Below are positions 2,670-6,286 of a stretch of 64,000 nt of DNA, piece after piece. The translations under genes were made by a program, and so were the position numbers. The stretch spans positions 1 through 64,000 of the forward strand of contig NDWX01000009.1 of the NCBI GenBank assembly GCA_002855745.1. The letters run 5' to 3'. Every line of letters begins with the position of its first letter. Within the stretch, counting starts at the first letter, position 1. This stretch comes from Thermofilum sp. NZ13. Its GTDB lineage: Archaea > Thermoproteota > Thermoprotei > Thermofilales > Thermofilaceae. The notes under the pieces were generated by a model. It was not told the DNA's origin and did no database searches. It saw nothing but the letters and a program-made list of their open reading frames with translations.

Positions 2670-3038
2670 CTAAGCTATTTTCGACTCTGTTATCTTCTTT
2701 TTTACTTCTCTTAGGGTGTATAGGAGGACGCCTAGCCTTGTGTCTTTGCTGAAGAGGACTGCCATGTAGCCTAGATCTCCGAGCCTGGTGTAGATGATGC
2801 CTGAGCCGTCTGGGGCGTTGATGGTGATCCACTCCGCCTCCCCCTTCCCGAGCTCAGTGCTAGCCCTGTTGCCCACCTCGCTCAGCACAGCCGTGAGCGC
2901 CGCCACCTTCTCCTCAAGCTCCTTGTCAGCTATGCTGCTCAGCAGTGGCAACCCATCACCCGTAGCAACAACAAACCCCTCAAACCCAGCAACCCTAGTA
3001 ACAGGCTCAATAAGCCTCCTCAAAGCCTCAATATTCAA
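2670..3038 (-). CDS. roadblock/LC7 domain protein (first of two)
   Basis: A 122-residue single-domain protein with the roadblock/LC7 pattern: an N-terminal helix, a beta hairpin with VATGDGLPLLSS, a long central helix (residues 40-62), three strands (EWITINAPDG, GIIYTRLG, YMAVLFS) and a C-terminal helix. Roadblock proteins dimerise and bind or regulate small GTPases, as MglB does for MglA. The only in-frame start is TTG at 3038. A TATA-like ggatatattg lies about 45 nt upstream, in the 70-nt gap after the GTPase gene, so it may have its own promoter as well as reading through from the module upstream. Confidence 0.85.
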   Translation of the reverse strand: MNIEALRRLIEPVTRVAGFEGFVVATGDGLPLLSSIADKELEEKVAALTAVLSEVGNRASTELGKGEAEWITINAPDGSGIIYTRLGDLGYMAVLFSKDTRLGVLLYTLREVKKKITESKIA

Positions 3039-3108
3039 GCTCAGCCTGCATCACCACTAGATTAGCTTTTGACGACAATATATCCTTTACAGTTAAAATG
3101 ATACCCCG

Positions 3109-3636
3109 TTAACCTCTATTAATGATTTCAACTATCCTCTTTAAAACCGCGTAGGCGGAGCTCCTCTCGTATGCTACGAGCGGCATGACGTTTTCCTGTT
3201 TTACTCCGAAGAGTTGCGCCACGATGTTCGGTTTAACACTACCTGGGAGGTCCTGTTTACTCACAGCTAAGATATGAGGATACTCACCTAAGCTTTTCAT
3301 ATAATCATAGACAGCGCGCGAGCGCATTACGTGTAGCATTGAGGTGCCGTCCACGATGAAGATATATCCATGCATTCCAGTTGAAAGAACTCTCCACATG
3401 AACTGGAGGCGGGTTTGCCCTGGGGTTCCAAACAGGTATACATCTACACCGTTTACACTGGTTTTGCCGTAGTCGAAAGCGACGGTCGTATACCGCTTAA
3501 TCTGCGACTCATAAGATGAGGATACAGGGACTTCCGTCGTGAGAACGTTAGATGCTATGGTTTTCACAAAGGTTGTTTTACCGCTCGCATAAGGTCCACT
3601 AATGAGTATCTTTAGGTAACTTCGTTGCGTCGACAT
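3109..3636 (-). CDS. MglA/CvnD-like small GTPase
   Basis: A 175-residue Ras-like GTPase of the type found beside roadblock proteins (COG2229/MglA-like). The P-loop is GPYASGKTT at residues 14-22, and the G2 threonines are T50/T51. G3 is FGTPGQ (69-74), where the usual Asp of DxxG is replaced by Gly. G4 is SKQD (126-129) instead of NKxD. A 150-residue core ends in a C-terminal helix; there is no membrane anchor or lipidation motif. The first 38 nt overlap the end of the second roadblock gene, which implies translational coupling. Its likely role is a molecular switch controlled by the adjacent roadblock proteins; the output is unknown. Confidence 0.88.
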   Translation of the reverse strand: MSTQRSYLKILISGPYASGKTTFVKTIASNVLTTEVPVSSSYESQIKRYTTVAFDYGKTSVNGVDVYLFGTPGQTRLQFMWRVLSTGMHGYIFIVDGTSMLHVMRSRAVYDYMKSLGEYPHILAVSKQDLPGSVKPNIVAQLFGVKQENVMPLVAYERSSAYAVLKRIVEIINRG

Positions 3637-4015
3637 AGCCGACCCCTGCTGCCTTAACGATACTATCCTCGTACTTCCTTAAGACAAGGTGTATCAGCCC
3701 AAGGTTTGGACGAGAGGTCGTGGAGAGAGCGATGAAGGAGCCATCAACCGACGAGATCACGACGTGCTCCCCGTTCTCGAATTCCACGTCTACTCTTCTT
3801 ACTCGGCTACCGAAAATGTCTCCAAGCGCGTCGAGAGACCCCAAGGCTGCGGCAGAGGCTACCGCGAGGAACTCTGCCTGAGACTGGTCAGGCGCGATGG
3901 AGGATATAGGGATTCCGTCGCGCCAGGCAAACACAATGGAAGATACGGCGTCGTGTGTCTCCTTTATTATCTTCCCAAGTATCCCTCTTACTTCCGCCTC
4001 TTTATCCGAACTCAT
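3599..4015 (-). CDS. roadblock/LC7 domain protein (second)
   Basis: A 138-residue protein with a roadblock/LC7 fold: helix 1 (residues 5-20), strand pair SSIVFAWRDGIPISSIA, a long Ala-rich central helix (FLAVASAAALGSLDALGDIF), then strands RRVDVEFENG, HVVISSVDG, SFIALSTT and a C-terminal helix. It fits the MglB/CvnB-like regulators of the small GTPase encoded immediately downstream, with which it overlaps by 38 nt. The membrane-anchored coiled-coil gene ends 14 nt upstream. The central helix normally forms the homodimer interface, and it could also pair with the other roadblock protein of the cluster. Confidence 0.87.
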   Translation of the reverse strand: MSSDKEAEVRGILGKIIKETHDAVSSIVFAWRDGIPISSIAPDQSQAEFLAVASAAALGSLDALGDIFGSRVRRVDVEFENGEHVVISSVDGSFIALSTTSRPNLGLIHLVLRKYEDSIVKAAGVGYVDATKLPKDTH

Positions 4016-4029
4016 AACGGCATTGACAC

Positions 4030-4782
4030 CTACTGGGCTTTTGAGACTATGTCTCTAAAATATCTATTTATCGTTTCTTTTATCGCATCCAGCCTAGCCT
4101 CGTTGACGTTTGCGCTATCCTCCACCTCCAAGATGGCGTACACCGACAAATCTTTTACATCCCCTAGGTAGAAGACTTCGAGCACCCTATCTCCTCTGAC
4201 TAGCGAAACTCTAGGTGTCCTGGATATCCTTAAAATCTCAAGGATCTTCGGAGGTTCCTCGCTAGGCTGACCATAGCTTTTGACGACGTATCCCTGTGAA
4301 GTTATTATACATGCGTACTTAACCTCGGGGTAGTGAAGCGCGAGCTCGTTCAGCTCTTTGATCGAAGCCGCCTCAATATGTTGCGGGACGCGAGGGTAGG
4401 AAACCGGGCGAGGCACCTCGTTTACCTCCCTCGTGAATCTCCTCTCTAGAAGTACGGTTTTGCTCTCGAGTGCCGTCACGCGAGAATCGATGCGGATGAA
4501 GGATTCCTGGAGATTTTTAACAGAGTTGTGCAGTTCGGTTAGCATGGAAGAGGTATTCTTCTCCGCCTCTTCCAGTTTTTTAATTCTTTCATCAAACTCT
4601 CGAAATCTATCATGGGAAGCGCCGCCTTCGCTTATGCGTCCTACTCTTCGCGTGAGGTAAATTAAAGCGATAAAAACACCCAACGAGATGCCGAGCGAAA
4701 GCAGCATAAAGAAGATTAGATAAAAGGAGAATGGCTCTACCTGTAGCAGAGTTTTGTAGGCTTCTGAGTGAATAGCTAGCAT
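4030..4782 (-). CDS. membrane-anchored coiled-coil protein with roadblock-like C-terminus
   Basis: A 250-residue protein, first gene of the GTPase module. One membrane span lies at about residues 18-43. A charged coiled coil with heptad-like Leu/Ile/Val spacing follows at about 58-118, then a Pro-rich linker (122-135). The C-terminal part (140-250) has a helix, YACIITSQGYVVKSYG, another helix, three strands and a final helix. That order resembles a divergent roadblock/LC7 domain; this is inference from pattern. The layout suggests a membrane platform or sensor that presents a roadblock-like surface to the GTPase and the two roadblock proteins. I know of no named family for the full-length architecture. 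Confidence 0.75.
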   Translation of the reverse strand: MLAIHSEAYKTLLQVEPFSFYLIFFMLLSLGISLGVFIALIYLTRRVGRISEGGASHDRFREFDERIKKLEEAEKNTSSMLTELHNSVKNLQESFIRIDSRVTALESKTVLLERRFTREVNEVPRPVSYPRVPQHIEAASIKELNELALHYPEVKYACIITSQGYVVKSYGQPSEEPPKILEILRISRTPRVSLVRGDRVLEVFYLGDVKDLSVYAILEVEDSANVNEARLDAIKETINRYFRDIVSKAQ

Positions 4783-4909
4783 AACACAGCATGTAGTGTT
4801 TCTAGACGCCTTTTGATAAAATTATCGCACTATTAGAAAGCCTCAACACCTGCTTTGGTAAACATTGTTTGCCAACGAATTCACTGCAGTTTTCAGTACA
4901 AGTAGCTGA

Positions 4910-6286
4910 TTAAGAAGCGAAACCTATAACTTCGTATCTCGCGGATACCTGCTCCAAAACTCGTATAAATTCTTCACTCAGATCCGTTTTCACCTGGCTT
5001 AGAACCGAGTTAAATGCTCTCCTGGCACTCAGCCCCTGCTTTATCCTCTTGTTTATTTCCTGAGCAGTGAAGTACAAGGTGACGCGACTAACCCTTGTAA
5101 GCTTATCCGTGTAGGGCTGAACAAGCTTCTCAACGGTTTCAGGATCATAGCCAGTGAGTTTTGAGAGAAGGATCAGCGATGTTTTCTCATCTAAGAAGCG
5201 AAGGTATAAGACGACCGTGGTTTGAGGTGGGAGCTTTAGTAATCCCTCGAGACCTATCCTGTGGAACAAAATTACGTCTGCTGTGCACTTTAATCCATCT
5301 AAGAAGTGCTCCGTAAAGGCTTTTTCCTCCTCGTAGCTAAGGCCTAGAATTACAATCTTCCTGCCTGGTGGAAGTGTTCTGCATAAAAACTGTGCAGTTT
5401 CTCCTAGAGATTCTAGATCTGTAAAAGCGATTTTGAGTTTGTCCTCCTCGGCTGCACGCCTTCTTCCAGTAAAGCCTCTTATGGGTGCGATGATGCGAGA
5501 ATGTAAAGCTACCTGTGAGCTCTCGGCGAAGTAGAGCATAGCGCTTGTTCCCATGGATGAGGCTACGCCCCATGCGTCGGCTAGGCTTGGAGAACCAATT
5601 ATCGGCGTGATCGCAAGGAGGGTGACCTGCGGGGTAATCAGAGAGGCAAATGTTCTCTCACCTACTAGGGAGGTTGCGGTTAGAGATGAAAGTAGCACGA
5701 TGATTTCTGCTATAAACCTGCTGTCATGTGCTAGCACGTTAAAGAGGGTTGAGTAGAAAAGCACAGCATTGGTAACTTCATTCTCTGATGCTTGTAGTCC
5801 ACCAGGTAAAACCAGTAGCGGAGCCCTGATCTCCTCGCTTATTGAAAGGAGTAGGGAGAAGGCAAAGAGGTTGGCGATGAAGCTAAGACCTGTGAAAAAG
5901 GCTTCACGTGGTTTTTCCTTCCAAGTGAGGTAGTAGAGGATGCCGAGGATTACTCCGATAGAACTCGGGTGAGTGATAGCTAAGGGAACAACTAGTAAGA
6001 GAAGTGTAGATGAAACCCAACTGTGTATATTTTTTAAGATGAGAAGAAGCTGAAAGGGAAGAAGGGCCAAAAGAGGGAGAAATCGCTGTAGACGATATAG
6101 CTCCAGCGAGAACATGGCCACAAAGACTGGAACACCGAGTGACGGCGCAGTTAAAGCTGAGACGCTTGGTACAAAGCTCAGAATTAAGCTGTTTGTTCCA
6201 GCTAAGAATATTTCAGAGTAGAGTAGCGCGGCTGTGAAAATACTAGTCGCCGCAAGCAATCGCTCTCCCACTTTAGCCTTCGCCAC
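4910..6286 (-). CDS. large unknown membrane protein with cytosolic C-terminal domain
   Basis: A 458-residue protein starting with GTG. The first 270 residues contain about seven or eight hydrophobic spans. Residues about 280-458 are soluble: an alpha/beta part with KIVILGLSYEEE and VVLYLRF, then a helical segment (LTGYDPETVEKLVQPY ... SARRAF) that looks like the small helical lid of AAA+ proteins, but no Walker A motif is present. It sits 127 nt upstream of the membrane-coiled-coil/roadblock/GTPase genes on the same strand, so it may be functionally linked. I do not recognise the family; the AAA-lid resemblance is weak inference. Confidence 0.7.
   Translation of the reverse strand: MAKAKVGERLLAATSIFTAALLYSEIFLAGTNSLILSFVPSVSALTAPSLGVPVFVAMFSLELYRLQRFLPLLALLPFQLLLILKNIHSWVSSTLLLLVVPLAITHPSSIGVILGILYYLTWKEKPREAFFTGLSFIANLFAFSLLLSISEEIRAPLLVLPGGLQASENEVTNAVLFYSTLFNVLAHDSRFIAEIIVLLSSLTATSLVGERTFASLITPQVTLLAITPIIGSPSLADAWGVASSMGTSAMLYFAESSQVALHSRIIAPIRGFTGRRRAAEEDKLKIAFTDLESLGETAQFLCRTLPPGRKIVILGLSYEEEKAFTEHFLDGLKCTADVILFHRIGLEGLLKLPPQTTVVLYLRFLDEKTSLILLSKLTGYDPETVEKLVQPYTDKLTRVSRVTLYFTAQEINKRIKQGLSARRAFNSVLSQVKTDLSEEFIRVLEQVSARYEVIGFAS

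Follow-up and report, generated by a model that had tools for sequence, protein, structure and literature searches.

Four minus-strand genes encode a membrane protein, two roadblock proteins, and a GTPase

The window analyzed here, a stretch of 64,000 nucleotides, is contig C32 of the 1.88-Mb assembly of a Thermofilaceae archaeon (genome G000). Within it, positions 2670-4782 hold four minus-strand open reading frames, which we call M, R1, G, and R2. M (4030-4782) encodes a 250-aa protein with one N-terminal transmembrane helix, a long coiled coil, and a C-terminal domain (residues ~144-250) with a predicted roadblock fold. R1 (3599-4015) encodes a soluble roadblock/LC7 protein of 138 aa with a PNLG motif that is invariant in the alignment, G (3109-3636) an MglA-like small GTPase of 175 aa, and R2 (2670-3038) a second roadblock protein of 122 aa, which starts with TTG. 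A 14-nt gap separates M from R1, the reading frames of R1 and G share 38 nt, and 70 nt lie between G and R2; the coordinates, strand, and spacing given in the preliminary description match these reading frames exactly. Upstream of M lies fam6 (4910-6286, minus strand), a 458-aa multi-spanning membrane protein whose C-terminal domain is related to AAA ATPases.

Both soluble roadblock proteins pass the 23-bit cut-off of the Pfam family Robl_LC7 (PF03259), R1 with 24.8 bits and R2 with 39.1 bits. R2 also has a paralogue, R2', on contig C13 of the same genome (G000:C13; L052:7486-7860). The two are near-identical across a core of ~250 nt and have diverged at their ends, and over that core, R2 orthologues of two conspecific genomes diverge by 3-10%. 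Because the paralogues within a genome are more alike than the orthologues between genomes, we read the similarity of R2 and R2', as it appears from these alignments, as the mark of gene conversion.

The C-terminal domain of M is predicted to adopt a roadblock fold

M has a single hydrophobic segment near its N-terminus (residues ~12-45), with a long helix or coiled coil also predicted. About 20 residues lie on the outside of the membrane helix, and there is no extracellular sensor domain. The charges that follow the helix, judged by eye, would place the C-terminal domain in the cytoplasm. This domain has no match in Pfam, Robl_LC7 included; in a profile comparison, it reached 73% probability against R2 and ~1% against R1.

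An AlphaFold model built from eight aligned M proteins has a mean pLDDT of 78, with values of ~70-92 in the C-terminal domain. The model places helices at residues 144-150, 177-187, and 228-249 and strands at 154-161, 166-170, 191-196, 199-209, and 212-221. The resulting order of elements (helix, two strands, helix, three strands, helix) is the order of the roadblock/LC7 fold. In addition, a Foldseek comparison of the model with the PDB retrieved chains of MglB, MglC, an Asgard roadblock protein, a Streptomyces roadblock protein, and Ragulator MP1-p14, with E values of ~2e-4 and a probability of 1.00. Sequence profiles alone were insufficient to assign this domain, and it is the modeled structure that decides: as predicted, the C-terminus of M is a roadblock fold. 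Searches with full-length M returned a spurious match, an 899-aa reading frame antisense to TadC at locus L050, and subsequent searches used only the C-terminal domain as the query.

G is an MglA-like GTPase of a TACK lineage

G matches GTPase families in Pfam, including Arf (E 2e-8), and a sequence comparison with the PDB places Thermus MglA first (E 3.5e-7). Its G1 (GPYASGKTT), G2 (TT), and G3 (GTPGQ) motifs are invariant or nearly so in relatives. When compared with the motifs that Wuichet and Sogaard-Andersen defined for MglA Groups 2-5 (PMC4316618), G shows GxxxxGKT, GTPGQ, and a threonine in G2, where the arginine typical of Group 1 is lacking, as well as coupling to a roadblock gene, which is provided by the overlapping R1. 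The serine of its G4 motif, SKQD, is a departure from these groups. In a tree of 99 GTPase sequences, which includes few euryarchaeal sequences and no published Group 4 references, a single branch with support 100/95 splits the TACK sequences from the bacterial and euryarchaeal ones.

Other assignments were considered and rejected. The crenarchaeal Rup GTPases (Group 2) need a DxxG of the eukaryotic kind in G3 and lack coupling to MglB, and G has GTPGQ and a roadblock gene. Arf, Sar, and SRbeta require DxxGQ in G3, where G reads GTPGQ, so that the Arf match is one to a related family. Altogether, these data bear out how the preliminary description had identified the proteins: G as an MglA-like GTPase, R1 and R2 as roadblock proteins, and M as having a roadblock-like C-terminus, for which model topology and structural matches agree.

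The M-R1-G triad is conserved across archaeal families

We found G in 21 of the 27 genomes of the order, including all 14 of those that are at least 90% complete. The phylum-wide set of 299 genomes contains 52 with G and 32 with M. Three families, Thermofilaceae (f1, 8 genomes), f22 (11 genomes), and f39 (6 genomes), supply 25 genomes in which M is encoded upstream of G and in the same direction. In these 25 genomes, the interval between the matched stretches of M and G is always 362-411 nt, which is the space for one roadblock gene, and R1 occupies this interval at every locus read. In Geocrenenecus (L088), Calditenuaceae (L092), and Wolframiiraptor (L105), M was detected in its expected position before R1-G. 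This finding is not circular, because the profile used at these loci was built from Thermofilales M proteins only.

The distribution of M has limits. Vulcanisaeta and Caldivirga have G (and Vulcanisaeta an R1-like gene as well) and no detectable M, and searches around 65 loci with GTPases of this kind in bacteria or Euryarchaeota detected no M, although roadblock proteins were found at 40-45 of them. A literature search, which left most subscription journals outside its scope, returned no description of the triad or of a membrane-anchored member.

Could such an arrangement be a chance or hitch-hiking cluster, its order retained merely through close kinship of the genomes? The region around the window does show general synteny within Thermofilaceae (PepQ, Endo_dU, and IF-2B-like genes), as that explanation would predict. 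However, the order and spacing of the triad persist among families in which all other neighbors differ, and at only 6 of its 36 places is M found without G within 8 kb. For M-R1-G, chance adjacency is contradicted by these results, and we regard the explanation as barely credible; for R2, which adjoins G in one genus only, it is possible.

Judged by gene order, then, the widely conserved unit is one of three genes, M-R1-G, rather than of four. Conservation of gene order in relatives, one of the checks by which the preliminary description had proposed to judge its grouping, holds for this triad across three archaeal families, and the four-gene module that it had drawn does not extend to R2. In genus g6, R2 lies several kilobases away beside PepQ, and it was rejected as a core member since it is not adjacent to G beyond the genus of the window. 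R2-type roadblock genes do recur near TadA in the pilus loci of f22 and beside other roadblock genes in f4. In this last family, a third roadblock-like protein (fam35), detected by iterated profile only, is encoded between R2 and G (L042:8234-8683; L043:957-1403).

Further variants of the gene set were seen elsewhere. In Thermofilaceae genera g3 and g7 (L048:6875-10684, L047, and L050), a divergent GTPase gene faces R1, and a neighboring gene encodes a 128-aa protein (fam39) that looks like a transmembrane helix joined to a short roadblock-like domain; genus g7 also has a second GTPase gene plus R2 near TadA/TadC. In an Archaeoglobaceae genome (L142:876-2042), a 388-aa protein combines an N-terminal half that is KaiC/RecA-like by eye with an MglA-like GTPase as its C-terminal half, and a roadblock gene follows.

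Gene order in relatives links the triad to type IV pili

In f22, a family of the Wolframiiraptoraceae type, a divergently transcribed TadA gene (T2SSE) is followed by M-R1-G, TadC (T2SSF), and a pilin-like gene; such pilus-embedded triads occur at L105, L088, L197, L198, L200, L204, L215, and others. Two Thermofilales families other than that of the window show the same association. Specifically, the triad follows TadC and pilin-like genes in f5 (L085), and it adjoins TadA/TadC in f4 (L042), where M is located after G. Since the f22 loci are interrelated rather than independent, we counted this evidence by lineage (f22, f5, and f4). The Pfam family T2SSF is present in 55 of 57 G-bearing genomes, so that possession of pili is in itself uninformative; we used gene order alone as evidence. 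Five genomes (G034, G158, G202, G220, and G164) have a duplicated M-R1 pair that lacks G and immediately precedes the TadC and pilin genes. Because such pairs occur without G, M and R1 are likely to be a joint unit, as far as gene order can tell.

At the loci examined in Thermofilaceae and in f39, pilus genes are not adjacent to the module. The genome of the window has two pilus systems, on contigs C5 and C2, and the TadA/TadC pair that matches the module is that of C5, a separate contig. Its TadC is 40-66% identical to the TadC proteins encoded beside the module in relatives, compared with ~25% for the C2 system. It has been reported that various archaeal loci for type IV pili often include genes for roadblock proteins (arCOG02603; PMC4858521) and that bacterial MglA governs pili and polarity (PMC9481161). 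These arrangements suggest that the output of the module in relatives is the type IV pilus. A candidate for the output, which had been given as unknown, can be named for these relatives by gene order, and for Thermofilaceae it would follow by extrapolation from them.

A similar arrangement was noted in Actinomycetota-type bacteria (L095:6098-13685 and L100), in which a roadblock gene, a gene for a protein of ~400 aa, and an MglA-like GTPase gene immediately precede PilB/PilT/PilC-like and pilin-like genes, in parallel to the linkage of the archaeal module with pili.

The neighbors of the triad in Thermofilaceae differ from those in f22. fam6 is the upstream neighbor of M, conserved in Thermofilaceae only (11 loci examined), and has several hydrophobic segments. 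An AAA match and an intact P-loop are present only in L040, the P-loop having been lost elsewhere, including in the window. With a mean pLDDT of 46.7, its AlphaFold model is not good enough to interpret. fam6 is possibly an accessory protein. In most Thermofilaceae, a gene for a HIT-domain protein of ~400 aa, likewise restricted to this family, lies between fam6 and M (e.g., L033:4886-6073); it is missing in the window species (4782-4910), L035, and L041.

Such neighbors allow a broader reading, in which the module would be a general membrane-landmark or polarity switch that, in Thermofilaceae, acts with fam6 and the HIT protein on another envelope process, pili being one of several outputs and linked to the module in other lineages. 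The precedence of fam6 at 11 Thermofilaceae loci, with pilus genes elsewhere, is consistent with this, as is the f39 triad, which has neither fam6/HIT nor pilus neighbors. Against it, fam6 and the HIT protein are confined to one family, the HIT gene is absent from the very species of the window, and the AAA P-loop is mostly lost, whereas the pilus linkage recurs in several families. We consider this reading unlikely, if still one to be weighed seriously.

A membrane-tethered switch may control type IV pili

The explanation that we favor, and hold to be probable although by no means secure, is that M-R1-G constitutes a membrane-tethered switch of the MglA/MglB type that controls type IV pili. 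In this model, the N-terminal helix would hold M in the membrane, and the coiled coil would present its roadblock domain to the cytoplasm. There, the domain would pair with R1, its presumptive partner by gene order, and the dimer would serve both as membrane receptor and as GAP (or GAP/GEF) for G. Once recruited, G-GTP would act on the motor and platform of the type IV pilus (TadA/TadC) and so determine the time or place of pilus assembly or operation, similar to the role of MglA in bacteria. The genes would have left the pilus locus in Thermofilaceae and come to lie beside fam6, the HIT protein, and (in one genus) R2. We infer the M:R1 dimer, the binding of G, the GAP activity, the cytoplasmic orientation of M, and the effect on pili, the last step being the most conjectural in Thermofilaceae.

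Spatial switches based on small GTPases have received much study in eukaryotes and bacteria such as Myxococcus, whereas archaea are underexplored in this respect (PMC9481161). The module offers a concrete, testable candidate for the control or placement of type IV pili in archaea. If the model is correct, membrane-tethered roadblock scaffolds, the principle of Ragulator, would extend to archaea outside Asgard.

Comparison with known systems

The preliminary description had called the locus conservon-like. Like the Streptomyces conservon (CvnA-D), it combines a membrane protein, a roadblock protein, and a GTPase in one operon, and to this extent, as an archaeal set of such proteins, the description stands. 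The kinship does not: no histidine kinase was matched in M or among the neighboring genes scanned, DUF742 had no match in M, R1, G, R2, or the neighbors scanned, and the G4 motif of CvnD, NxFD, is replaced by SKQD in G. The GTPase itself is a separate lineage in the tree, outside the actinobacterial sequences sampled. With neither a CvnA kinase nor a CvnC DUF742 protein among the genes scanned, and with a GTPase of another lineage, membership in the conservons was rejected. A relay of conservon type, in which M senses the outside through its short N-terminus and the coiled coil signals to the roadblock protein and GTPase, with development or transcription as the output, would share the same broad logic of membrane protein, roadblock, and GTPase as in Streptomyces (PMC4316618). 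The missing kinase, DUF742 protein, and extracellular sensor domain, together with the position of G in the tree, make such a relay very improbable.

The favored reading, a tethered MglA/MglB-type switch, finds a close counterpart in Myxococcus and Thermus, where an MglA-type GTPase is likewise encoded beside roadblock proteins; by fold, the roadblock domain of M is closest to MglB. The differences are that G3 reads GTPGQ here and TVPGQ in Group 1, that G belongs to its own archaeal clade, that M joins a roadblock domain to a membrane anchor and coiled coil in one protein, and that RomR, Frz, and a kinase are absent. The MglA proteins of the archaeal Group 4 share with G the GTPGQ motif, a threonine at the G2 position otherwise held by arginine, and a coupled roadblock gene. 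However, the reported members of Group 4 are almost all from Euryarchaeota, with a coupled MglB and "no conserved proteins" nearby (PMC4316618), whereas here the genes are carried by TACK archaea, and M is conserved as a third member. As for the roadblock proteins of type IV pilus loci, the association has already been reported, and the text of that paper contains neither an MglA-like GTPase nor a membrane-anchored roadblock (PMC4858521).

Finally, the module resembles Ragulator/LAMTOR-Rag in that a membrane-tethered roadblock scaffold would serve a small GTPase, and the predicted fold of the M C-terminus matches p14/MP1. Here, though, anchor and roadblock form one polypeptide, and G is a single-domain MglA-like protein rather than a Rag; the likeness is one of analogy, not of membership. 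An extension of this analogy, which we put at slightly less than an even chance, is that the triad is an ancient membrane-tethered platform of TACK archaea akin to a minimal Ragulator, and with it a spatial GTPase switch beyond the Asgard group; an obligate M/R1 heterodimer would recruit G to the membrane and control where type IV pili are placed.
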